41,383 nt of DNA, taken from IMG/VR virus record IMGVR_UViG_3300015374_000022, positions 1 to 41,383 of that record. The stretch is one strand, 5' to 3'. A model generated the notes under the pieces. It did not search any database. It worked only from the letters and a program-made list of their open reading frames with translations, and was not told the DNA's origin. Below are positions 484-32,860 of the stretch, piece after piece (the first letter of the stretch is position 1; each line of letters begins with the position of its first letter). Both the position numbers and the translations under genes were made by a program. The DNA is from a virus.

Positions 484-511
484 GGGCACGGCAACTTAGG
501 TTTCCGTGCCC
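484..511 (+). promoter_or_regulatory. GC hairpin before the first small gene
   Basis: Perfect 8-bp inverted repeat GGGCACGG/CCGTGCCC with a 12-nt loop, 31 nt before the start at 543. It matches the first hairpin of the composite leaders found before the following genes. The second small hairpin is weak here (CGT/ACG around 515-523), so this is a marginal family member. Confidence 0.5.
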
Positions 512-542
512 ATTCGTGAGACGTTCTAAGAAGGGCAATGAA

Positions 543-791
543 ATGCGAATTTACAGAGTGTTGGTGTGCGCTGGTGAGCGGCCCGGCATCGTACTTTTCG
601 TTCAGGCCTGGGACATGGTCGGGTTGCGCCGGACGCTGGACAACGCGACCGGAATCACGCTCCCCGGGGTTAAGGGACTCGTTCAGAGCTGGACTTTGTC
701 CAGCGCGCGGGTGGTGAAGCGCATTCCTCGCTACGCGCGGGTTGCGAACCCTGGACAGAAGGCACCCGTCTTGCACGCAAGTGGTGCGTGA
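543..791 (+). CDS. Small hypothetical protein, 82 aa
   Basis: The ATG at 543 is preceded by AAGAAGGG and starts a peptide MRIYRVLVCAG.... An earlier in-frame ATG at 465 would run through the upstream hairpin and has no Shine-Dalgarno. The protein has a beta-strand-like hydrophobic start and a basic C-terminal half. I recognise no domain. It opens the plus-strand cassette of small genes with hairpin leaders. Confidence 0.6.
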   Translation: MRIYRVLVCAGERPGIVLFVQAWDMVGLRRTLDNATGITLPGVKGLVQSWTLSSARVVKRIPRYARVANPGQKAPVLHASGA

Positions 792-815
792 GCTGGCCCA
801 ATGAACAACGGTGCA

Positions 816-856
816 GCACGGGCTACGTCCGTGCCGTGCCGTGTCCGTTGGGGACG
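816..856 (+). promoter_or_regulatory. Two-hairpin leader element 1
   Basis: Hairpin 1 is GCACGG/CCGTGC (816-834). After 8 nt comes hairpin 2, GTCC/GGAC (843-855), then AGAGGAGG and the ATG at 875. It shares order, spacing and orientation with eight more copies downstream. Confidence 0.55.
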
Positions 857-874
857 CATAAGAGGAGGCAGACA

Positions 875-1060
875 ATGTCCGGTTACCCCTGCGCACGGAG
901 CGTCCGCGTCGAGTTCGCCGACGACTCTTTCGTTGACGGGATCGAGGGACTGAACCCGGGTCACGCGATGTGGCGTGCCCGATGCAACTGGGACGGCGCC
1001 GTGGTCACCGATCTGGGCCCGTTCGACCCGGCGGAGCACCCGTTCGAGTCGGTGAACTGA
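875..1060 (+). CDS. Small hypothetical protein, 61 aa
   Basis: The ATG at 875 follows a strong AGAGGAGG at proper spacing. An in-frame start at 788 would read through the leader hairpins and is rejected. The protein MSGYPCARSVRVEFADDSF... is acidic, with aromatic/Asp patterning as in small beta-rich phage proteins; no family recognised. The next gene follows after another leader element. Confidence 0.65.
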   Translation: MSGYPCARSVRVEFADDSFVDGIEGLNPGHAMWRARCNWDGAVVTDLGPFDPAEHPFESVN

Positions 1061-1077
1061 ACACAACGCTCTCAGTG

Positions 1078-1118
1078 GGGGACGGCGTGTCCGTCCCCTG
1101 CTGTGTCCGTTGTGGACA
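1078..1118 (+). promoter_or_regulatory. Two-hairpin leader element 2
   Basis: Hairpin 1 is GGGGACGG/CCGTCCCC (1078-1098). Five nt later hairpin 2 is TGTCC-GTTGT-GGACA (1104-1118). GAAAGGG and the ATG at 1133 follow. The second stem differs in sequence from most other copies but keeps pairing. Confidence 0.65.
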
Positions 1119-1132
1119 GAAAGGGAACGCAA

Positions 1133-1231
1133 ATGATCGAAAGCTTCGCGGTTCGGATCATCGCCTGGGCGATCACCGTGCTTGTCCTGTTGGCGGGCTC
1201 GGCGGCAATCCAGTACGCGGCAACGCACTAG
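1133..1231 (+). CDS. 32-aa single-pass membrane microprotein
   Basis: ATG at 1133 after AAAGGG, preceded by a leader element. The peptide begins MIESFAVRIIAWAITVLVLL and ends ...IQYAATH. Residues about 6-28 form one hydrophobic helix, so it is a predicted membrane peptide. It is too short for default gene callers, but start, leader and tight spacing to the next gene (11 nt) support it. Function unknown. Confidence 0.55.
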   Translation: MIESFAVRIIAWAITVLVLLAGSAAIQYAATH

Positions 1232-1242
1232 GGAGAGTGGAA

Positions 1243-1734
1243 ATGAACATCACCGACCGCGTCATCCGGCACATGGGAAGCCCGGACCGGCGGTACCACG
1301 TGCGGCACGCCAACACGTCGCCCGACTCGTGGACGCTGGAAGCACTCGACGGCCCGAGCAAGGGGCAGGCATACGCGGCACGGATCAACCCCGCCGCATA
1401 CGAGGTCTACGGGCCCGACGGCTGGGCCCGGCTCCCGTGGGTGGGCGACACCCCGGTCACCGAAACGCTGGTGAACGGGCGCACCCGGCAGGACGCGACC
1501 GCCTACGGCGCGGAGAAGTTCGCCGCGCTGCGGGACCTCGGGTACCGGCTGGGCCTGTGCTGGTTCGAGGCATGCGCGGTTGCCGCGTACACGGTCGAAC
1601 GGCACCCGCGGGAGGCACTGAACGTGCTTGAGAACCGCTACGGGCACTTCAAAGACGAGTGCTGGCGCGACATGGCACGCGGCTCGTTCTGGTTCCACTT
1701 CTACGGCCAGCAGCCGTCGCACCCGCGCTACTGA
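1243..1734 (+). CDS. Hypothetical protein, 163 aa
   Basis: ATG at 1243 after GGGAGAG, 11 nt past the microprotein stop and without its own hairpin leader, so probably co-translated. The sequence is soluble. The N-terminal part (about 1-75) is beta-rich with VYGPDGWARLPW, and the C-terminal half (about 85-163) is mostly helical with Cys and Trp. No known domain recognised. Strong GC3 supports coding. Confidence 0.75.
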   Translation: MNITDRVIRHMGSPDRRYHVRHANTSPDSWTLEALDGPSKGQAYAARINPAAYEVYGPDGWARLPWVGDTPVTETLVNGRTRQDATAYGAEKFAALRDLGYRLGLCWFEACAVAAYTVERHPREALNVLENRYGHFKDECWRDMARGSFWFHFYGQQPSHPRY

Positions 1735-1750
1735 CGTAGCCGCTTTGGTG

Positions 1751-1790
1751 ACGCGCGGGCAACCGCGCGTGCGCCATGGCTGCTAGGCCA
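1751..1790 (+). promoter_or_regulatory. Two-hairpin leader element 3
   Basis: Hairpin 1 is ACGCGCGG-GCAA-CCGCGCGT (1751-1770). Six nt later hairpin 2 is TGGC-TGCTAG-GCCA (1777-1790). GAAAGGAGAG and the GTG at 1808 follow. Confidence 0.7.
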
Positions 1791-1807
1791 AACGAAAGGA
1801 GAGAACC

Positions 1808-2068
1808 GTGTGTGAAGTCACGGAAAGGTGCACGCGGCGTGCCCTGTTCTGGGTGCAGTCGCGCCGGGAGATCCAGCACCCCGGGAACCCCGAAATCGGT
1901 GTCGAGCCGTTCAGGTCCGGCGTCAACGTGAGCGCGTGCTCCCGGTGCCTCCCCGTGGCCGTGCGCCGCATCGGGGAGATGAACCGCGAGGCGGCGAACG
2001 GGCTGCACTTGCCCGCGTCCGACGGCGTGATCGTCAAAACGAAGATGCCGAACGGTTCTTGGCAGTAG
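1808..2068 (+). CDS. Hypothetical protein, 86 aa
   Basis: GTG start at 1808 after GAAAGGAGAG. The peptide starts MCEVTERCTRRALFWVQSRR and has five Cys in its first half (CE.. C.. later ACSRC), suggesting a metal-binding or disulfide fold, though no classical zinc ribbon is clear. Preceded and followed by leader elements. Function unknown. Confidence 0.65.
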   Translation: MCEVTERCTRRALFWVQSRREIQHPGNPEIGVEPFRSGVNVSACSRCLPVAVRRIGEMNREAANGLHLPASDGVIVKTKMPNGSWQ

Positions 2069-2085
2069 TGCTAGCGCTTTCGGTG

Positions 2086-2124
2086 GCGCGCATGGGGGTG
2101 CGCGCACGCCGTGACCGCTAGGTC
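2086..2124 (+). promoter_or_regulatory. Two-hairpin leader element 4
   Basis: Hairpin 1 is GCGCGCA/TGCGCGC (2086-2105). Seven nt later hairpin 2 is GACC-GCTA-GGTC (2113-2124). GGAAGGGG and the ATG at 2149 follow. Confidence 0.65.
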
Positions 2125-2148
2125 TAGCTCAACGGAAGGGGAACACCA

Positions 2149-2607
2149 ATGCGAGTGGTTGAACTGGTTATGCAGTGGTGGGCGGAGATTGACGGCAACT
2201 CGCCCGCATACGACGAACAGAGCGCGGACCGGGTGGACGCTTTCACCGAAGCCGGGGATCACGTGTTCACCCTGTATCGGTACGGGACGTCCGGCCGATG
2301 GGTGAACGTGCGCCCCGAAGACGTCGGCGCCGACACCCCGTTGTGGTCGGACGTCGACACCTACGCGGTGGACCCGGACGGGGCCAACCTGGGGCCGGTG
2401 TACTCCCTGAAACGGAACGAACTGAGTGGCACCGTCCACGTGTTCCGCGACGGCGAGCGAATCGGCCACCTGTGGCCGGACCCGAAGTCCGAAGGGTTCG
2501 CCGCGTTCCGCGTGGACAGCTCGAAACCCATCGCGCGTCCCAAGACGGAACGCACGTGCGTCCTCAAGATCACCAAGGGCGAGTGGGACGGCGGAGACCA
2601 GCTGTAG
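2149..2607 (+). CDS. Hypothetical protein, 152 aa
   Basis: ATG at 2149 after GGAAGGGGAAC. A soluble acidic protein rich in Trp, Tyr and beta-type segments (VFTLYRYGTSGRWVNV; IGHLWPDPKSEGFAAFRV). No catalytic motif or known family is visible. It lies directly before the DUF932 gene and carries the same leader type, so the two are likely co-regulated. Confidence 0.7.
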   Translation: MRVVELVMQWWAEIDGNSPAYDEQSADRVDAFTEAGDHVFTLYRYGTSGRWVNVRPEDVGADTPLWSDVDTYAVDPDGANLGPVYSLKRNELSGTVHVFRDGERIGHLWPDPKSEGFAAFRVDSSKPIARPKTERTCVLKITKGEWDGGDQL

Positions 2608-2641
2608 AGCGGGCACCTGGCCGCCCGTGCGCTATCCGTGG

Positions 2642-2684
2642 GGAACGTCCCCTCCGGACGTTCCTGCGCGGTCACCGCACGGCC
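2642..2684 (+). promoter_or_regulatory. Two-hairpin leader element 5
   Basis: Hairpin 1 is GGAACGTCC-CCTCC-GGACGTTCC (2642-2664, 9 bp perfect). Five nt later a weaker hairpin 2, GGTC/GGCC with one G-T pair, lies at 2670-2684. The start of the DUF932 gene is 34 nt further on. Confidence 0.6.
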
Positions 2685-2718
2685 AAACCATGCGGGCACA
2701 CAAGAGAAAGAGGCAGAA

Positions 2719-3738
2719 ATGTCCAAGGAAACCAAGCTGTGGCTGAACAACAACACCCTCATCGGGTACACCGCCAAACGCGGGAACGCGTGGCACTACC
2801 GCGCCGCGGACCAGGGTGAGCAGTCCAACCACTACCCGGGCGCCGTGCCCGTGGAAGACGTGCTCTCCCGGCTGTTCTACTGGAGCGCCGCGAAGGGCAC
2901 CGCCAAGGCCACGTGGATCACCGAGAACGGCGTCACCAGCCGCGAGGACACCAAGCGCTTCCCCGTCGGCAGAGTCGACACGGGCGACATCTTCGGGTAC
3001 TTCGCGGACGGATACGAGATCCACCAGTATCGCGACTGGCTGGTTACCCAGGTCGGGAACATCCTCGACGACGGGTTGGGCATCGGCTCCGCCGGCCTGC
3101 TCAAGAACGGCGCACAGGCGTGGGTGAGCGTCGAGGTTCCCGACACGATCCGCACCCCGGAGGGTGTCGAGTTCCGCCCGAACCTGCTGGCCTGCACGAG
3201 TCACGACGGGAGCATCGCGACGACGTACAAGCGCGTCGTGACGAACGTCGTGTGTGACAACACGATGGCGGCCGGGCTCTCGGAGAACGGCCAGGCGATC
3301 AAGATCAAGCACTCCCGAAACAGCAAGCTCAAGCTTGCCGAAGCACGGGATGCACTCGCCATCATGCACACCGTCACGGAGGACTTCGCAGCGCAGGTCA
3401 AGGCCCTGTGCGAAATCGAGGTCACCCCGCGCGAATGGTCGAAGTTCCTCAACGTCCACGTGCCTACGACGGACGCGGACAGCAAAACCAAGCAGACCAC
3501 CGCGGCGAACAAGCGCGCCGCGCTGTCCCGGCTCTGGAACAGCGACAACCGCGTCGAGCCGTGGAAGGGCACCGCGTACGGCGTGCTCCAGGCCGTCAAC
3601 ACCTACGTGCACCACGAAGGCACGGTGCGGGGTGCCTCGCGCGCCGAACGGAACATGTCCAGCGCCGTGCTCGGCAAGTTCGACGTGCTGGACCTGGAAA
3701 CCGTGAAGACGCTCGACCGGGTGCTCGCCGACGCCTGA
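2719..3738 (+). CDS. DUF932 phage/plasmid-like protein, 339 aa
   Basis: Resembles the DUF932 (phage/plasmid-like TIGR03299) family: a conserved N-terminal stretch with YWSA..., the central block GIGSAGLLKNGAQAWVSVEV, then RPNLLACTSHDGS and RVVCDNTM-type segments, and a helical C-terminus. Length about 340 aa is usual for the family. Function of the family is not established; it is common on actinobacterial plasmids and phages, often near replication genes. The ATG at 2719 follows GAAAGAGG; an earlier in-frame start lies inside the leader hairpin and is rejected. The next gene encodes a clamp-like protein, which hints at a DNA-metabolism role (inference). Confidence 0.85.
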   Translation: MSKETKLWLNNNTLIGYTAKRGNAWHYRAADQGEQSNHYPGAVPVEDVLSRLFYWSAAKGTAKATWITENGVTSREDTKRFPVGRVDTGDIFGYFADGYEIHQYRDWLVTQVGNILDDGLGIGSAGLLKNGAQAWVSVEVPDTIRTPEGVEFRPNLLACTSHDGSIATTYKRVVTNVVCDNTMAAGLSENGQAIKIKHSRNSKLKLAEARDALAIMHTVTEDFAAQVKALCEIEVTPREWSKFLNVHVPTTDADSKTKQTTAANKRAALSRLWNSDNRVEPWKGTAYGVLQAVNTYVHHEGTVRGASRAERNMSSAVLGKFDVLDLETVKTLDRVLADA

Positions 3739-3754
3739 CCGTGCGCACTTGGTG

Positions 3755-3798
3755 GCGGGCCGCCTTCGGGCGGCCCGCGCGCCATGGCTGCACGGCCA
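3755..3798 (+). promoter_or_regulatory. Two-hairpin leader element 6
   Basis: Hairpin 1 is a 10-bp stem GCGGGCCGCC/GGCGGCCCGC closed by a TTCG tetraloop (3755-3778), a very stable RNA fold. Six nt later hairpin 2 is TGGC-TGCACG-GCCA (3785-3798). GAAGGG and the ATG at 3825 follow. Confidence 0.75.
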
Positions 3799-3824
3799 AC
3801 CCCAACGTGACGAAGGGATTCACC

Positions 3825-4475
3825 ATGACTGCCATGATGGAAACGACGAGCACCGAAACCGGCACCGTGACCGCGTTCACGGCGAACGGCAAGGGCGCGC
3901 TTGTCGGGATGCTCGCCGACTTGGCGCTTACCGCCGACACGGGCCGAGGCGCCCTGGAACAGTTCACGGTCGTTCGCCTGCACACCGAGGGTGGGCGGCT
4001 TCACGGCTGGTCCTCCGACCGGTACCGCGCCGCACACGCGGCCGTGGACGGCGGAGAGCTGCCCCACGCCGTGACCATCGGTGCGGAGGACGTCGCGAAC
4101 CTGGAGAAGACGTTCCGGCAGGCCCTGACGGTCACGGTCACCGTGAACACCGGGGAGATGACCGCGGAATTCGCCGGCCTCGGGGTGACGCTGGCCGTCA
4201 AGCTGCGCCCGAAGTCCTCCAACGACCTCGGGGACATGCTCCCGCGCATCGCCGTCGACTCCCTGCCCGACTCCGCAACGCACGTCATGTTCAACGCGGC
4301 GTTCCTGGCGGACTTCGCGAAGGTCGGCAAGCGACGCAAGGAGTACGTGCAGATGTTCGCGGGCGAGACCGGCAACCGCCCGGCGCACATCCGCATCGGT
4401 CCGGACTACCGCGCGTGGCTCATGCCGATCCGCAATCAGAACGGGACGGACGGCTGGCTCCCGTCCGTGTTCTGA
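3825..4475 (+). CDS. Shortened sliding-clamp-like protein, 216 aa
   Basis: Two stretches recall bacterial DnaN (DNA polymerase III beta). LHGWSSDRYRAAHA at residues 59-72 is like the clamp's ATDRYRLA strand, and RAWLMPIR near the C-terminus (196-203) is like the terminal VIMPVRL strand. Between them, AAFLADFAKV recalls the YLxDALK helix. Host clamps are about 370 aa with three domains; at 216 aa this could keep only about two. If so it may be a phage-specific clamp or decoy for polymerase and clamp loader (inference). Start chosen at the ATG at 3825 after GAAGGG; earlier in-frame codons lie inside the DUF932 gene. Confidence 0.7.
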   Translation: MTAMMETTSTETGTVTAFTANGKGALVGMLADLALTADTGRGALEQFTVVRLHTEGGRLHGWSSDRYRAAHAAVDGGELPHAVTIGAEDVANLEKTFRQALTVTVTVNTGEMTAEFAGLGVTLAVKLRPKSSNDLGDMLPRIAVDSLPDSATHVMFNAAFLADFAKVGKRRKEYVQMFAGETGNRPAHIRIGPDYRAWLMPIRNQNGTDGWLPSVF

Positions 4476-4508
4476 GCCCGCACGCCAACCCGCGCGTGAC
4501 ATCGGCGG

Positions 4509-4554
4509 GGCACGGGCCACAGTGGCCCGTGCCGGCGCCGTGACCGCACGGTCA
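4509..4554 (+). promoter_or_regulatory. Two-hairpin leader element 7
   Basis: Hairpin 1 is a 12-bp perfect inverted repeat GGCACGGGCCAC/GTGGCCCGTGCC (4509-4533). Seven nt later hairpin 2 is TGACC-GCAC-GGTCA (4541-4554). GGAAGGGAG and the ATG at 4570 follow. Confidence 0.75.
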
Positions 4555-4569
4555 ACGGAAGGGAGAAGC

Positions 4570-4830
4570 ATGACAGGGAACAGCACCCCGCGTAAGCGGC
4601 TGAGGGGCACGGTGCCGGGCATCCTGCCGGGTGTCGCCGACGACGAGGCGCACGTGTCCGTTGCGCGGAGCACCTGTCGCGGTTGCCCGGAGTCGTCCGC
4701 CTGGGAACGGGAAGTGGACGGCGTCGCGGAAGGGGTCTACGCCTGGCAGCACGAGCACGCCGGGAAGACGGGGCACCGCGACTTCTACCTGTGGACGGCG
4801 ACTCGAAGTAGGGCCCGGGTCGTCAGCTAG
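4570..4830 (+). CDS. Small putative metal-binding protein, 86 aa
   Basis: ATG at 4570 after GAAGGGAG. Contains CRGC at residues about 36-39 and, some 30 residues later, QHEHAGKTGHRDF. This CxxC ... HxH...TGH.xF arrangement resembles small actinobacterial DUF7848-type proteins found in phages and Streptomyces. The Cys/His spacing suggests a zinc site, but this is not proven. Function unknown. Confidence 0.65.
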   Translation: MTGNSTPRKRLRGTVPGILPGVADDEAHVSVARSTCRGCPESSAWEREVDGVAEGVYAWQHEHAGKTGHRDFYLWTATRSRARVVS

Positions 4831-4846
4831 TCCGTGTAACCCCATT

Positions 4847-4910
4847 CGCGCCTGCTCGGTGTTCTGGCATGACAGAACACCGAACAGGCGCGGGCGTGGC
4901 TACACGGCCA
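4847..4910 (+). promoter_or_regulatory. Two-hairpin leader element 8
   Basis: Hairpin 1 is the longest of the set: CGCGCCTG + TCGGTGTTCTG pairing with CAGAACACCGA + CAGGCGCG around one C-A mismatch (4847-4892). Four nt later hairpin 2 is TGGC-TACACG-GCCA (4897-4910). GAGAAGGGATG and the ATG at 4929 follow. Confidence 0.8.
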
Positions 4911-4928
4911 ACCGAGAAGGGATGAGGC

Positions 4929-5303
4929 ATGGAATCGAAGGACTTCCACAAGACCAATGCGTACGCCGCCGAGCTGACCGAAAAGCACGGGGCGTCGTAC
5001 GCCGCCGTGATCCGGCTCGCTGGCAACCTGCACCAGACGCTGACAAGTCAGACGACAACAACCGATCAGATGTACGTCCCGCACGTAGAGGGCCGATACC
5101 GCGCACTCCTGCAGCTCGACGGCATGAAGGCAGCAGCCATCGCGATCGGCACCGACGTACACGGCCTGTCTCACGGAGAAGCAGAGCGCGGAGCCGACGT
5201 GCACATCGCGGCTTTGGCAAAGTGCATCCGCGAAGACGTCGACGACAACTTTGCGAGAAAAGCCCGTGCCACCCGGAAGGCCGACGGCGTGGTGTCGCAA
5301 TGA
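4929..5303 (+). CDS. Hypothetical helical protein, 124 aa
   Basis: ATG at 4929 after GAGAAGGG. Largely helical (MESKDFHKTNAYAAELTEKH...). It resembles small phage proteins of unknown role; no motif is decisive. Its TGA overlaps the next ATG (ATGA), indicating translational coupling with the 96-aa product downstream. Confidence 0.75.
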   Translation: MESKDFHKTNAYAAELTEKHGASYAAVIRLAGNLHQTLTSQTTTTDQMYVPHVEGRYRALLQLDGMKAAAIAIGTDVHGLSHGEAERGADVHIAALAKCIREDVDDNFARKARATRKADGVVSQ

Positions 5304-5590
5304 GCGGCCAGGAATTCCCGGCCCCGGTGGCGGGACGGATGTTCCTCGCGCGGAACACCACGCGGAAGGTGCATTTCGCGTACACGCAGGGCCGGGCGCT
5401 GCTGTGCCTCCGCAAGTTTCAAGCGCTCTACCCGGTCAGCACGCTGCCAGTGGGATCACGGCTGGACGAAGACCCCGGAACCCGCCGGCGGCTGCTGCTC
5501 GCCGGGGTGAAGCCGGAGGAGCTGTGCCTCGTCTGCTTCTGCGATCAGTTCCGCAGCGAGTACGCCGAAGCGTTCAAGAAGTCCGCGTGA
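5300..5590 (+). CDS. Hypothetical protein, 96 aa
   Basis: The ATG at 5300 overlaps the previous stop by 4 nt. Basic protein with RNTTRKVHFAYTQGRALLCLRKF and a C-terminal LCLVCFCDQF Cys cluster, possibly metal binding. No recognised family. Coupled to the preceding gene and followed by the last clear leader element. Confidence 0.7.
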   Translation: MSGQEFPAPVAGRMFLARNTTRKVHFAYTQGRALLCLRKFQALYPVSTLPVGSRLDEDPGTRRRLLLAGVKPEELCLVCFCDQFRSEYAEAFKKSA

Positions 5591-5600
5591 TCACGCTCGC

Positions 5601-5642
5601 GGCCACCGTGCACGCGGTGGCCCCGGGCGCGGCCACACGGCC
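5601..5642 (+). promoter_or_regulatory. Two-hairpin leader element 9
   Basis: Hairpin 1 is GGCCACCG/CGGTGGCC (5601-5622). Eight nt later hairpin 2 is GGCC-ACAC-GGCC (5631-5642). GAGAGGAACC and the ATG at 5670 follow. Confidence 0.7.
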
Positions 5643-5669
5643 GAACCCACCAACCGAGAGGAACCGACC

Positions 5670-6377
5670 ATGAGCACCGCCGACTGGAACGCGGCCGACT
5701 GGGCGCGCTACATGCTGGGCGTGGCCGAGCTCACACTGTGGGCTTCCGACACGCTCGCCGACGAGGGCATCGCGACCGACGTCGAGGTGACCCGCGCGGC
5801 CGCCAGCGTGGCGCTGGAGCGCGGGGAGTTCGCGCCGCTGCACGAGTGGGCCGCCCGGGTGCTGGAGTCCGACGAGCTGGCCGCGGACGGGCCGTACAAC
5901 CGCCTTGCCGCTGACCTGGTCATCACGCAGAAGGTGCTGGTCCCGGCAGACAGACCCGTGTTCACCGAGCCCCACCCGGAGGTGATGCCGGGGGGTGACG
6001 TGGGTGGGGATGTCCAGGCCGGCGATTCCTACTCCCGGCGGTTCGTCGCCCCGTTGGCGGATAGCCAGCACTGGGCCGTGGTCGACGTCCACACCTACCT
6101 CGGCACCGCCGACGTCACCGGCGAGGGCGACCTGGTGTTGTGGCGGCAGGACGAGTACAGGGTGTGCGCGAACCCGTCCCGGCCGGGCGACGCCGAGGTC
6201 ATCGCGTCGCCCCCGGTGGCGGTGGACACGGGGACGCCGTCGCCGTGCGAGGACGACGCGTACGACTACTGCGCGGACCTGCCGCTGGCGGCGGTGGTGT
6301 GGCCGGCCGGGCTCTGGACCCCGGGTGGCCGGCGCGGGACGATGGGCACCGAGACGGACGGTGACACGGTCGAGTAG
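5670..6377 (+). CDS. Hypothetical protein, 235 aa
   Basis: ATG at 5670 after GAGAGGAAC. The N-terminal 100 residues are helical and acidic (STADWNAADWARYMLGVAEL...). The middle is beta-rich (SQHWAVVDVHTYLG; DLVLWRQDEYRVC), and the C-terminus is acidic and Gly-rich with a YDYC motif. No domain recognised. Strong GC3 and a leader element support coding. Confidence 0.75.
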   Translation: MSTADWNAADWARYMLGVAELTLWASDTLADEGIATDVEVTRAAASVALERGEFAPLHEWAARVLESDELAADGPYNRLAADLVITQKVLVPADRPVFTEPHPEVMPGGDVGGDVQAGDSYSRRFVAPLADSQHWAVVDVHTYLGTADVTGEGDLVLWRQDEYRVCANPSRPGDAEVIASPPVAVDTGTPSPCEDDAYDYCADLPLAAVVWPAGLWTPGGRRGTMGTETDGDTVE

Positions 6378-7982: not shown

Positions 7983-8058
7983 GCCGCCTTAGCTCAGTCG
8001 GCAGAGCGCGCCTTTTATAGGGGTCAGGTCGCGGGTTCGAGTCCCGCAGGCGGTACCA
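7983..8058 (+). tRNA. tRNA, anticodon UAU (Ile) by canonical numbering; unusual
   Basis: A 73-nt cloverleaf plus encoded CCA. Acceptor stem GCCGCCT/AGGCGGT with one G-T pair, D stem GCTC/GAGC, perfect T stem GCGGG/CCCGC with loop TTCGAGT, variable loop AGGTC, discriminator A. Standard numbering gives loop TTTATAG and anticodon UAU (codon AUA). The anticodon stem is poor (CGCCT/GGGTC). Sliding the stem to GCGCC/GGGGT pairs slightly better, gives loop TTTTATA and anticodon UUA, which would read the ochre stop. Most bacteria read AUA with a lysidine-modified CAU tRNA, so either reading is notable. Confidence 0.8.
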
Positions 8059-10147: not shown

Positions 10148-10185
10148 GCCGGGGCTCGGTGTCCAGGGGGACGCCGAGTCCCGGC
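10148..10185 (+). promoter_or_regulatory. Hairpin leader related to the cassette elements
   Basis: Long stem GCCGGG/CCCGGC, CTCGG/CCGAG and GTCC/GGAC with symmetric one-nt G-T style interruptions and an AGGG loop. It is followed by GGCCAACCGA, the same string as in leader element 8, and then the start at 10212. The small second hairpin is not clear here. Confidence 0.5.
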
Positions 10186-10211
10186 CAACCGACATGGAAT
10201 AGGTGAGCAGC

Positions 10212-10454
10212 ATGAGACTCCATCGGAGCCGCTACGGCGTCGGCCACGCCAAGCCCCGAAACGGCCGCTGGTACATCTGGGACGGAACCCGCCTTCTCGG
10301 ATTCGCAGATCGCAACATTGCGAGCGCCGGACCGAACTGGTGGGTGTCGGCGTGTACGACACCACCCTATGAGCCGCTCCCAGAGGCCGTGGGGGCGCGC
10401 AGCGTGGACGAGGCGATCCGGATGTTGGCAGCGACAGTGGACGACGCGAACTGA
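10212..10454 (+). CDS. Hypothetical protein, 80 aa
   Basis: ATG at 10212 preceded by AGGTGAG at ideal spacing; a GTG three codons upstream is the alternative. Basic N-terminus and Trp-rich core (NGRWYIWDGTRLLGF), then a helical acidic end. No family recognised. Preceded by a long hairpin. Confidence 0.6.
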   Translation: MRLHRSRYGVGHAKPRNGRWYIWDGTRLLGFADRNIASAGPNWWVSACTTPPYEPLPEAVGARSVDEAIRMLAATVDDAN

Positions 10455-24070: not shown

Positions 24071-25417
24071 CTACGCCGCGAGGTCGAGGTCCTGCCGCAG
24101 GAGTCCCCGCCGGCCGAGTTCCGCAACGATGGTGATCACCGCATCGGCATCGAGGCCGACGGAGGTTGCCAACTGGTCCAGGGTGGTGGACTCGGGCTCC
24201 GGGGTAGGCAGGTAGCTCACGGGCGCCACCTCGTGCCGCTGGGCCACGACGTTCATCCACGCGGCGATCTCCGGGAGCTGCGCATCCCGCAGGTACCCCT
24301 TCGTCATCCTCGTGCTGCTGTGTCCGAGGATATCCATGATGACGGTGATCGGCGCCCCGGCCGCCGCCAGGCCGGTCCCGACGGTGTGGCGGAGGTCGTG
24401 AAAGCGGGGCCGCGGGCCGGTGACCTCACCGAGTTCCGACGCTCGACGCCAGGCAACCCGGAACCGGCGGCCGAGGTACGCCGCATACACCGGGTTGTTG
24501 CGGCTGTTGCGGATCACGAAATCCTCCGGACCGTCGCCGCGCCAATCGCGGATCCCCCGGAGGAGCTGCACCGCGTATGGACTGAGACTGACCCTGCGTT
24601 CCCCCTCCTCGCCGCCACCCTTCGTATTGGGTCGGGTGGTGAGGTCGTTCTCCATGACGTCGCGGACGAGCACGCTGGGGTTAGGCCCGTCGAGGTCGAT
24701 CCGCTGCCAGGTGAGGCCGGTGATCTCCCCTGCCCGCATCCCGCACTCGTAGGCCAGCACCAGAGCCGGAAGAGCCCAGAAGTCCAGGTGATACGTCAGG
24801 GCGATGAAGTTGGAGAACGTCAAGATCTCCGGTCGGATGGTCCGGCGAACGCGGATCGCCTTCATGTCCTCGGTGAAGTCGTCTTTCCGCCACTCCTTCT
24901 TGACGGCCCACCGGATGATCTGCCCCATGTAGATCAGCCGCTGAGATCGGGTCGACGTCGACCGGCCGGCATCCTTCTCCGCGAGGTCCCACTTCACGTA
25001 GGTGTCTTTGTCCAGCTCATCGATAGGCAGGTCGGGCCACTGCCGCTTGAACGCCCCCACCACGGACGTGCGGGTGGCGCAGGTCTGCTTGGTACCGTCC
25101 TGAAGCGGCAACCACGCGTCGATCACCTCGGTGACTGTGGGGACGTTCGGCCGGTGGGTCTGGCGCTGCACGGGGACACCCTGGGCGATCAACGCCCCGT
25201 CAAGCCGGGCCTTGAACTCCTCCCGCGCCAGAAGGGCGGACTCGGGCGTGGGCCACGTCCCGCGGGAGCCGGGCTCGGGGTTCCGGACCCAGATCTTCTT
25301 CTTCTTGATCGGGTGCCAATAGTAAATGCGGTACCGGCCGCTGGGGTGCAGCTGCTCCGGCCCGGCCTCCTCGCTCTTCGGCGCGGGCTTGCGGCGGGTC
25401 TTGGTCTTCGTCGTCAT
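24071..25417 (-). CDS. int: Tyrosine-type site-specific integrase, 448 aa
   Basis: SAM-like core-binding domain (about 92-190) and catalytic domain (about 195-385) with Arg228 (CGMRAGE), Lys266 (NTKGG), His340 and Arg343 (FHDLRHT), His366 (LGHSS) and Tyr375 (KGYL), the complete tyrosine recombinase set. The N-terminal 60 residues form an arm-binding-like domain (SGRYRIYYWHPIKKKKIWVR). An extra C-terminal segment after 400 has an HTH-like end (LDQLATSVGLDADAVITIVA). Catalyses phage integration and excision with an Xis. Start at 25417; TTCCCACG repeats lie upstream. Confidence 0.95.
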   Translation of the reverse strand: MTTKTKTRRKPAPKSEEAGPEQLHPSGRYRIYYWHPIKKKKIWVRNPEPGSRGTWPTPESALLAREEFKARLDGALIAQGVPVQRQTHRPNVPTVTEVIDAWLPLQDGTKQTCATRTSVVGAFKRQWPDLPIDELDKDTYVKWDLAEKDAGRSTSTRSQRLIYMGQIIRWAVKKEWRKDDFTEDMKAIRVRRTIRPEILTFSNFIALTYHLDFWALPALVLAYECGMRAGEITGLTWQRIDLDGPNPSVLVRDVMENDLTTRPNTKGGGEEGERRVSLSPYAVQLLRGIRDWRGDGPEDFVIRNSRNNPVYAAYLGRRFRVAWRRASELGEVTGPRPRFHDLRHTVGTGLAAAGAPITVIMDILGHSSTRMTKGYLRDAQLPEIAAWMNVVAQRHEVAPVSYLPTPEPESTTLDQLATSVGLDADAVITIVAELGRRGLLRQDLDLAA

Positions 25418-26503: not shown

Positions 26504-26577
26504 AGCGGGGTGGAGCAGCTCGGTAGCTTGCTGGGCTCATAACCCAGAGGTCGCAGGTTCGAATCCTGCCCCCGCCA
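26504..26577 (+). tRNA. Initiator tRNA-like gene (fMet, CAU)
   Basis: Acceptor AGCGGGG/CCCCGCC leaves positions 1-72 unpaired (A-C); D stem GAGC/GCTT; anticodon stem CTGGG/CCCAG with three G-C pairs next to the loop CTCATAA; T stem GCAGG/CCTGC; discriminator A. The 1-72 mismatch, A11-U24 and the GGG/CCC anticodon stem are the hallmarks of bacterial initiator tRNA. CCA is not encoded (A followed by CAG). A possible -10 TAGCCT is at 26486. Terminators flank it on both sides. Confidence 0.85.
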
Positions 26578-26578
26578 C

Positions 26579-28024: not shown

Positions 28025-28888
28025 TTATCTCCACTCACTGATGATGTTGGCGATGAACGCGGCAGACTTGGCCGCATCCAGCGCCTTTTCGTTGAGCACC
28101 GCCATCTGCAACGTGGTTCGCTCAACCAACGCCGGATCTTCAAGGAACAGCCCGACGTAGTGGAGATCCGAGTGAACCAGTGGCGCAGCATCCGGCGACT
28201 CGATAACGAGACGTTGCCCATCTTGCAACGGCGTCTTACCTGCCGCGAAGGGGACAACACGAATTGTCACGTTATCAAGTTTGGTTTGCAGCTCGATGAG
28301 GTATTCGAGCTGTTCAATCATGACCGAGATGTCACCTATAACGGTGCGTAGCACGCCCTCGTGGAAGTACGCTACGAGGTGAACCGGGTTCTCGCGGCGT
28401 TCGAGGATGTTCCGTCGACCAATGCGCTCCGCAACCCATCGACGCGCGTCTGCGGGCGATACGCCGTCCGCTTCCATCTGGGCGCGAGCGTAGGCAGCCG
28501 TCTGGATCAGTCCTGGAACCATCAGTGCGGCAAAGTACGTGATGGTCTTCGCTTCCTCTTCGGCGGCCATCACGGCGCCGATCATGTGGTCGCGCTCCAC
28601 GGCCCGGATGGCAACCCAGGTGGACTCGTCGAGATCGCCACCCTCCGGGTTCAGGAGGCGGAGTAGGCCATCCGTCTCCTCGGGAGTGGCGTTCGCAAGC
28701 GCAAGCGCCTTGATCAAGTTAACTTGGCTGATCTTGCGCTTGCCGTTGAAGATCTTCGAGATCTGGCCCTGGCTTAGCCCCAGCTCGGCGGCCAGAACAT
28801 AGGTGGTCAACCCGGCCCGCTCCGCGATCTTGCGCAGCCTCCCGCCGAGGCGCTTGTCGCGCATATCCGTCGCCATGCGGTTGAGCAT
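28025..28888 (-). CDS. XRE HTH + DUF5753 regulator (WhiJ-like), 287 aa
   Basis: N-terminal XRE helix-turn-helix, residues about 14-70 (GGRLRKIAERAGLTTYVLAA then ELGLSQGQISKIFNGKRKIS). DUF5753 domain, about 105-282 (ALMVPGLIQTAAYARAQMEA; VAYFHEGVLRTVIGDISVMI; RVVPFAAG). Typical length 280-290 aa. Paired with the DUF397 gene downstream. Start at 28888; an ATG four codons later is possible. Neither has a Shine-Dalgarno, so the mRNA may be leaderless. Regulates its own operon in characterised relatives. Confidence 0.9.
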   Translation of the reverse strand: MLNRMATDMRDKRLGGRLRKIAERAGLTTYVLAAELGLSQGQISKIFNGKRKISQVNLIKALALANATPEETDGLLRLLNPEGGDLDESTWVAIRAVERDHMIGAVMAAEEEAKTITYFAALMVPGLIQTAAYARAQMEADGVSPADARRWVAERIGRRNILERRENPVHLVAYFHEGVLRTVIGDISVMIEQLEYLIELQTKLDNVTIRVVPFAAGKTPLQDGQRLVIESPDAAPLVHSDLHYVGLFLEDPALVERTTLQMAVLNEKALDAAKSAAFIANIISEWR

Positions 28889-31855: not shown

Positions 31856-32860
31856 ATGTCTGGCAGACGTTGGAAAATGTTGCCCTATATAGCTTTCGCG
31901 GCCATCGTGAGCCTCAGCGGTGCGTGTTCTGCCCTTGGAGACTCCGGCGATGAGCCGGCGAAACCCGGCCCCGGCGGGCTGGAGAGAACGTCGCTGACGG
32001 TAGCCATCCAACCGTCAGTGGATGCCGCGCCGTACTGGATGGCGCAGAAGCTGGGCTTCTTCCGGGATGAGGGCCTCGACGTGAAGACCACCCTCGCGGA
32101 GAACCCCAACATCTCGCGGTCCAAGGTGATCTCCGGAGAGGCCGACCTGGCGGAGCTGACGTACCCGCCGTTCGTCATCGCGGTAAAGAAAGGGGAGGAC
32201 CTTCGGATCGTTGCCGACGGCACGGCGGCGAACCCCAACAGCAACGTGTTGATCACCGTCCCGAACTCTCCGGTGAAATCGGTCAACGACTTGCCGGGTA
32301 AGAGGATCGCCATCACGTCGGCCAACTCGACATCCCAGCTCTTGACCCAGGCTGTGATGGCTGCTCACGGCAAGGACTACCACCAGGTCACGTGGATTCA
32401 GCTGGGGCTGTCCGACATGGCGGCGGCACTGCAAAACAACCAGATCGATGCCGCCTACCAACCGGAGCCGTTCATACACAAAGCGGCTCGAACGGTCGGC
32501 GCGACGCCGGTCATCGATGTTGCGGCTCGGGGAACGAGCACAGACGACTTCCCGATCCTCGGGTACGTCGCCACAACAAAGTGGACAGAGCAGAACCCGA
32601 CCACCATGGCCGCGTTCCAACGCGCCATGCAGAGGGCATCACGGCTCGCGGAAGCCGACCGCAGCAAGTGGGAACCCTTGGTCGTCGAGTTCGCCAAGGT
32701 GGAAGACGCGGACGCGAAGCTGATGGTTGCGCCGCGCTTCTCCTCGACCGCCGACGCGAGGCGCCTTCAGCGCGTACCAGACCTGATGGCGGACCAGGGG
32801 ATCATCCCGAAAGGCAGCATCAAGATGGACACGCTGATCGTCAAGCAGGTCTCCCCCTAA
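31856..32860 (+). CDS. NitT/TauT-type substrate-binding lipoprotein, 334 aa
   Basis: Signal peptide with lipobox LSGAC (Cys24). Periplasmic-binding fold of the NMT1/SsuA/TauA type: TVAIQPSVDAAPYWMAQKLG, FFRDEGLDVKT, SGEADLAELTYPPFVIAVKK, NVLITVPNSPVKSVNDLPGK, IDAAYQPEPFIHKAA. In known systems it delivers sulfonates, nitrate or thiamine precursors to an ABC permease. No permease or ATPase gene is present here, so it may serve a host transporter or bind a ligand for another purpose. It lies between two paralogous genes, on a phage-like element, which is unusual. Confidence 0.88.
   Translation: MSGRRWKMLPYIAFAAIVSLSGACSALGDSGDEPAKPGPGGLERTSLTVAIQPSVDAAPYWMAQKLGFFRDEGLDVKTTLAENPNISRSKVISGEADLAELTYPPFVIAVKKGEDLRIVADGTAANPNSNVLITVPNSPVKSVNDLPGKRIAITSANSTSQLLTQAVMAAHGKDYHQVTWIQLGLSDMAAALQNNQIDAAYQPEPFIHKAARTVGATPVIDVAARGTSTDDFPILGYVATTKWTEQNPTTMAAFQRAMQRASRLAEADRSKWEPLVVEFAKVEDADAKLMVAPRFSSTADARRLQRVPDLMADQGIIPKGSIKMDTLIVKQVSP

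Follow-up and report, generated by a model that had tools for sequence, protein, structure and literature searches.

Related intercistronic hairpins and repeats

The early mRNA of bacteriophage T7 is cut at five sites, and the T7 signals R0.3, R0.5, R1, R1.1 and R1.3 are irregular intercistronic hairpins of about 60 nt, each made of an upper stem, an internal loop and a lower stem and placed one per junction of the early operon. R1.1 is a 60-nt hairpin with a 4/5 internal loop, which a single cut divides into 47 and 13 nt (PMC6121014, PMC4858673). In an actinobacterium, Streptomyces coelicolor, the rpsO-pnp intergenic hairpin has a 4/4 internal loop that ribonuclease III (RNase III) cuts on both sides (PMC10126417). 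Here we describe a family of hairpins of similar plan in the viral record IMGVR_UViG_3300015374_000022 of IMG/VR, whose 41,383 analysed bases are referred to below as the window. An array at 0.8–5.7 kb holds nine of these elements, each in the gap between co-directional small genes and 15–33 nt ahead of a start codon. The kind of site, an intercistronic hairpin of a phage mRNA that is probably processed, is already known. The family itself, its copy number, the fusion to the stop codon and the presence of two competing, covarying folds appear to be undescribed in the papers searched, and the family is absent from Rfam 15.

Size, architecture and position at operon junctions are thus common to the T7 sites and the present elements. 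However, the two have no common sequence, and the family belongs to a GC-rich actinobacterial host, occurs in 9–17 copies per phage, fuses its 5' arm to the stop codon and covaries in a second fold as well, its cleavage being only predicted. The rpsO-pnp hairpin is likewise actinobacterial and intergenic, with a near-symmetric internal loop at which the host RNase III cuts, but it is a single host locus and not a phage family, and the comparison made here is one of description. Repeats ahead of the starts of many small non-structural genes are also found in cluster K mycobacteriophages and Microbacterium cluster EF phages, as start-associated sequences (SAS) and extended SAS (ESAS). The ESAS is an inverted repeat with a variable spacer, as are the present elements, but its arms are imperfect and 17 bp long, with a spacer of 4–13 bp, and the authors who described it found no support for RNA pairing in the departures between the arms, which is the opposite of what the present family shows. 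A first-pass annotation of the window had already set the layout apart from that of SAS and ESAS, and this distinction holds: the 13-bp SAS GGGATAGGAGCCC occurs at chance level (14 matches with at most 3 mismatches in the window against 14.5 expected, none of them in 816–5642), and both the arms and the covariation differ. Finally, the 17-bp dyad repeats of cluster O are likewise symmetric and numerous in each actinophage genome, and some of them lie between genes. They are, in contrast to the present family, near-invariant palindromes of inconsistent orientation, one third of them inside genes, and resemble DNA sites.

Architecture of the element

A search with the pattern of the 3' arm revealed further arrays in three IMG/VR phages: 3300036783_000204 (G001, 17 copies), 2917736166_000001 (G002, 11 copies) and 3300036773_000110 (G004, 12 copies), which together with the nine window copies (c1–c9) constitute a set of 49. 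Each element is one irregular hairpin of about 64 nt whose 5' arm starts at the stop codon of the preceding gene, and it consists of an outer stem (about 7 bp), an internal loop, an inner stem GGTG/CGCC and an apical stem of 6–20 bp, usually with a bulge of 1–2 nt between the last two. Over the 49 copies, the paired region begins a median of 1 nt past the upstream stop codon, the end of the element lies a median of 21 nt from the next start codon, and all copies are oriented in the transcribed direction; the median hairpin length is 23 bp. The outer arms are separated by apical hairpins of 17–52 nt.

The first-pass annotation had seen two independent hairpins, a strong stem followed by a small one. 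This view had to be abandoned, since the conserved 3' part pairs with the 5' arm at the stop codon to form one long hairpin (for instance, CGCCATGGCTGCACGG at 3780 with CCGTGCGCACTTGGTG at 3739), with which the small stem competes. In a small stem such as TGGCT GCAC GGCCA, the loop and two G residues also belong to the 3' strand of the outer stem; because both structures use them, the small stem and the outer stem are mutually exclusive. The small-stem loops define four classes, GTTG, GCTA, GCAC and ACAC, and the loop changes jointly with the 5' arm (GCAC/GTGC, GCTA/TAGC, ACAC/GTGT). In the window copies, the Shine-Dalgarno sequence falls outside both folds.

Although the preference of the covariance model (see below) biases which copies turned up, the inner stem and the internal loop form the most general core of the family: the core YTTCGGTG...CGCCGTGRC is constant while the outer and apical sequences are free, also in the chromosomal copies described below. 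Such constancy, together with the many copies in one operon, would suit recognition of the inner stem and internal loop by an RNA-binding protein of phage or host, either an antiterminator or a translational regulator, as with nut or put RNA. We regard this as distinctly unlikely, given that no candidate regulator was identified, that the small-stem loop covaries with the 5' arm and so is not a fixed recognition loop, and that a copy ahead of nearly every gene is more than antitermination needs.

The apical stems had been reported as unrelated to one another. They are not wholly unrelated: they fall into classes common to several phages, and many end in CGTCC-loop-GGACG. Strong GC-rich hairpins past nearly every stop codon also bring to mind a terminator or attenuator of transcription for each gene, a role that the first-pass annotation had entertained. 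This is very improbable: classical termination would call for a U tract, and none is present (the 10 nt past the element contain a mean of 0.4 T, with a maximum of 2), a terminator scan called no site at the elements, and a series of terminators would silence the distal genes.

Covariation and the selected strand

A covariance model was trained on 30 copies from three phages, among them c2–c7 and c9, leaving out c1 and c8, while a fourth phage was kept out of its construction. The model recovers all nine window copies on the plus strand, where they had been placed before, with E-values (rough for this model) from 5e-3 to 3e-14. Relaxing the threshold to E=1 adds just one plus-strand match in the window, at 6199, which is marginal (E 0.1). 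A mechanical scan of 501–5700 for the order of parts proposed by the first-pass annotation found 8 occurrences against a mean of 1.2 and a maximum of 3 in 30 shuffles. A permissive scan of the whole window for structure only was not discriminating (35 matches versus 32 in shuffles), so that the evidence rests on sequence, structure and relatives together.

In the 30-copy alignment, 91.3% of the cells of the long hairpin are paired versus 70.9% after shuffling, and changes on both sides affect 17 pairs and 111 cells, where 29 are expected. The corresponding figures for the small stem are 86% versus 76%, and 17 cells versus 5 expected; in its third pair, A-U and G-C each occur in 10 copies and U-A in 3. 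Kinship among the copies inflates shuffle statistics of this type, and for this reason slid, within-class and held-out tests were added. Sliding the arms reduces pairing in the long hairpin to 28–48%. Swapping the arms among all 49 copies lowers the Watson-Crick pairs of the small stem from 203/245 to 165±4.4 and weakens the outer-stem energy from -429 to -330±13, and swaps confined to the loop classes still lower pairing (p<=5e-5 for the small stem, p=0.001 for the outer stem). Nearest pairs from different phages differ by compensatory changes, CG>TA and CG>GT between c1 and e1 of G004, and GC>AT and GC>TA between c7 and e9. The model also finds twelve copies in the held-out fourth phage, with scores of up to 70 bits. 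Therefore, the outer, inner and apical helices covary, and so does the competing small stem. The first-pass annotation had read compensatory change as selection on structure and had named beforehand covariation in homologous phages as the test of its claim; the strong covariation in related phages and the recovery of the held-out phage bear it out.

Whether RNA or DNA was selected had been left undecided, and here the mismatches are informative. Among the non-Watson-Crick cells of the inner and apical helices, counted helix by helix in alignment A1, there are 47 G.U and 0 A.C, one inner pair being U.G in 23/30 copies. Neither double-stranded DNA nor the opposite strand, if structured, would accept the first type of mismatch and reject the second. 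A helix-blind count of one-by-one mismatches in the long fold gives no such excess (G.U 23 versus A.C 21); the helix-wise count is preferred because the other takes in the conserved mismatches of the internal loop. Since G.U is tolerated and A.C excluded, and since the copies always lie in gene orientation between a stop codon and a Shine-Dalgarno sequence, selection almost surely acts on the sense strand, as RNA. A folded single strand of top-strand DNA would give the same asymmetry, but RNA is far more likely.

The same observations bear on a DNA-level element, which could be a gene-cassette recombination site working as a folded single strand or an operator bound by a protein dimer. Integron attC sites have a comparable plan of stem, loop, stem and variable stem, and, from phage to phage, the conserved elements mostly enclose unrelated genes, which agrees with the cassette exchange suggested earlier; such exchange is, however, not needed to explain the structure. 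We deem a DNA-level element highly improbable. Besides the absence of A.C in the inner and apical helices and the fixed position in gene orientation, there is no fixed core like the GTTRRRY of attC (GTTG, as judged by eye over the 49 copies, occurs only in the GTTG class), and the window integrase is an ordinary Phage_integrase family protein according to a general family match, IntI-specific models not having been run.

Competing folds and a possible role in mRNA processing

The long fold lies a median of 7 kcal/mol below the best small-stem fold, while the 3' fragment, folded by itself, adopts the small stem in most copies. Consequently, the small stem would be expected only when the 5' arm has been cut away or is covered. 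Moreover, the elements are irregular hairpins of about two turns with an internal loop, located between cistrons, as are RNase III sites of the T7 R1.1 type. On these grounds we tentatively favour, at a little below an even chance, the reading that they are processing sites predicted to divide the polycistronic message of the phage into individual mRNAs, RNase processing having figured on the list of roles in the first-pass annotation. Host RNase III would recognise the hairpin and cut within its internal loop, leaving the strong apical hairpin to cap the 3' end of the upstream mRNA. A cut on the 3' side of the loop would free the 3' strand, which could then refold into the small stem close to or at the start of the downstream mRNA, just ahead of the Shine-Dalgarno sequence, where it may shield this message from 5'-dependent decay. 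Since the footprint of a terminating ribosome takes in the 5' arm, the hairpin would neither fold nor be cut before the ribosome has cleared the upstream gene.

Several points speak against this proposal. The cleavage site is not readable from the sequence, and the refolding would need a cut on the 3' side of the loop, whereas the S. coelicolor enzyme acts preferentially on the 5' side (PMC10126417). The mismatches of the outer stem show no G.U excess (11 G.U, 14 A.C, with a recurrent C.A), and selection on the sense strand fits any role at the mRNA level. In addition, c5, a3–a5, a8, a9, a12 and b9 have a weak or broken small stem, and the copies around chromosomal DUF932 genes have none, so that this stem cannot be essential.

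A more elaborate version, on the whole improbable but deserving mention, is that of a self-refolding punctuation RNA in which the same 3' strand would serve first as one side of the processing hairpin and then as a 5' cap, the ribosome at the stop codon gating the switch. Being a self-contained module at nearly every junction, such an RNA would permit unrelated genes to be exchanged without disturbing the expression of their neighbours. The start of the hairpin just past the stop codon, which places the 5' arm under the terminating ribosome, is equally compatible with a translational insulator or termination-coupled switch, in which the hairpin would block the sliding of the ribosome to the next start and refolding would follow its passage, with no cutting. 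The two mutually exclusive covarying folds could be accommodated in this way too, as could the lack of an element between the members of both closely coupled pairs of open reading frames (ORFs) in the window. We consider an insulator unlikely, as the Shine-Dalgarno sequence is outside both folds, leaving no direct on/off switch visible, and a plain insulator needs neither a conserved core nor a second covarying fold.

The window copies and their genes

All nine copies are on the plus strand; the 110 nt preceding each start codon were folded for the nine gaps, with gene starts assigned by a custom script. Copies c1 (793–856, small stem 842–856, 24.5 bits, outside the training set) and c2 (1058–1118, outer stem CACAACG/CGTTGTG, small stem TGTCC/GGACA at 1104–1118, 41.7 bits) belong to the GTTG class. 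The GCTA class comprises c3 (1733–1790, small stem TGGCT/GGCCA at 1777–1790, 58.7 bits), whose relatives e2 and b2 retain the small stem with T-A>C-G and T.G>C-G changes, and c4 (2064–2125, outer stem CTAGCG/CGCTAG, small stem GACC/GGTC at 2112–2125, 63.7 bits). In the GCAC class, c5 (2619–2685) precedes the DUF932 gene and c6 (3736–3798, outer stem CCGTGC/GCACGG, small stem 3785–3798, 65.6 bits, minimum free energy z -5.4) occupies the gap between that gene and the next, followed by c7 (4486–4554, small stem TGACC/GGTCA at 4541–4554, 62.2 bits). The ACAC class contains c8 (4828–4910, outer stem CCGTGTA/TACACGG, small stem 4897–4910, 31.2 bits, outside the training set), which has the longest apical stem and e10 as its nearest relative, and c9 (5582–5643, small stem CGGCC/GGCCG at 5630–5643, 48 bits). 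The small stem had been claimed for all nine copies and is convincing in eight; in c5 it amounts to -0.3 kcal/mol, though c5 is the strongest member of the family and scores highest in the window (72.9 bits).

The delimited genes (875–6377, plus strand) are ORFs with Shine-Dalgarno sequences that start at 875, 1133, 1243, 1808, 2149, 2719, 3825, 4570, 4929, 5300 and 5670. The nine gaps each holding one element agree with the earlier statement of one copy before each gene, but the genes are eleven ORFs in nine units, the pairs 1133/1243 and 4929/5300 having no element between them. The gene at 2719 encodes a DUF932 protein (1.2e-48, Pfam/PHROGs), and the remainder have weak matches or none. One of the few genes common to three arrays encodes a tiny membrane peptide of about 30 amino acids with an AIQYA-like end (window 1133–1231, L082 4968–5057, L088 996–1094). 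The hairpin at 10148–10190 (GGGGCTCGGTGTCC/GGACGCCGAGTCCC), before the gene at 10212, had been taken for a looser relative; it is long, near-perfect and strongly folded (z -4.4), but was rejected as a family member, as the covariance model does not match it. A promoter scan called no sigma-70-like site.

Elsewhere in the window, a tRNA gene at 7983–8058 has the predicted anticodon TTA, which would read the UAA stop (ARAGORN; Rfam tRNA, 56.9 bits), and may represent a suppressor tRNA or an altered anticodon arm. A tyrosine integrase (24071–25417, minus strand) lies near a tRNA-Met gene (26504–26578, plus strand) and a helix-turn-helix/DUF5753 regulator (28025–28888, minus strand), which gives the record the look of a temperate phage whose attachment site may be a tRNA. 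A gene for an NMT1/THI5-like substrate-binding protein (31856–32857, plus strand) is either cargo or host DNA, and the record may mix prophage and host.

Relatives and hosts

A first genome-wide pattern scan gave 32 matches, mostly due to chance, and one real, in a prophage of Amycolatopsis dendrobii. The G002 sequence is also present in the genome record of this organism, NZ_JACGZW010000003, which supplies a host for G002. The window phage infects Amycolatopsis-like soil bacteria. At E<=1e-3, 15/297 genomes had matches in a survey of the host family. Beyond that family the element is rare: a class-wide sample of 297 genomes gave, at E<=1e-4, one matching genome besides A. dendrobii, hence one in the other 296. 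Several host-family matches sit just before and just after a DUF932-like gene, as in the window, and singletons flank DUF932 genes in other Pseudonocardiaceae. In genomes of this family (L102, L103 and L109), a gene of about 335 amino acids, with the size and position of DUF932, has an element on both sides within a conserved neighbourhood, and the outer arms of these elements vary in sequence (GTTGTG/CACAAC, CTCGC/GCGAG). The consensus was not found beside the gene for relatives of the DUF932 protein in viral contigs L002–L010. BLAST of two arrays against annotated phages yielded short matches over hypothetical-protein genes only and no annotated phage with an array, and an Rfam scan found only tRNAs in the window and nothing in the G001 and G002 arrays, with no family above the gathering score.

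Two gaps of G001 (L082), at 4159–4252 and 4435–4507, are filled by tRNA-like folds that start at the stop codon (GTCCTGC...GGTTCGACTCC...GCAGGAC) and have an acceptor stem and a T-arm with a TTCGA loop, without a normal D or anticodon arm. Neither ARAGORN nor Rfam recognised them, their folding energies are ordinary, and a search of viral contigs for similar minihelices returned only these two. Their presence in comparable gaps suggests, though no more than suggests, another processing-type signal.

Conserved boundaries and unrelated genes

The nearest copy belongs to another phage for 38/49 copies, and for 9/9 in the window, which indicates that the copies are old, distinct lineages; most genes downstream of related elements are unrelated between phages. 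Sequence divergence among the copies, with the fold retained, may have been a means of avoiding mutual recombination. What emerges in these Pseudonocardiaceae actinophages are arrays of 9–17 copies with two mutually exclusive covarying helices. They open to test the old question, raised by repeats of the SAS/ESAS type, of the role of intergenic repeats in the accessory regions of actinophages, and make the elements candidate modular junctions for polycistronic constructs in actinomycetes. The RNA boundaries are retained and the genes they enclose turn over, a situation that bears on how phage mosaicism stays functional.

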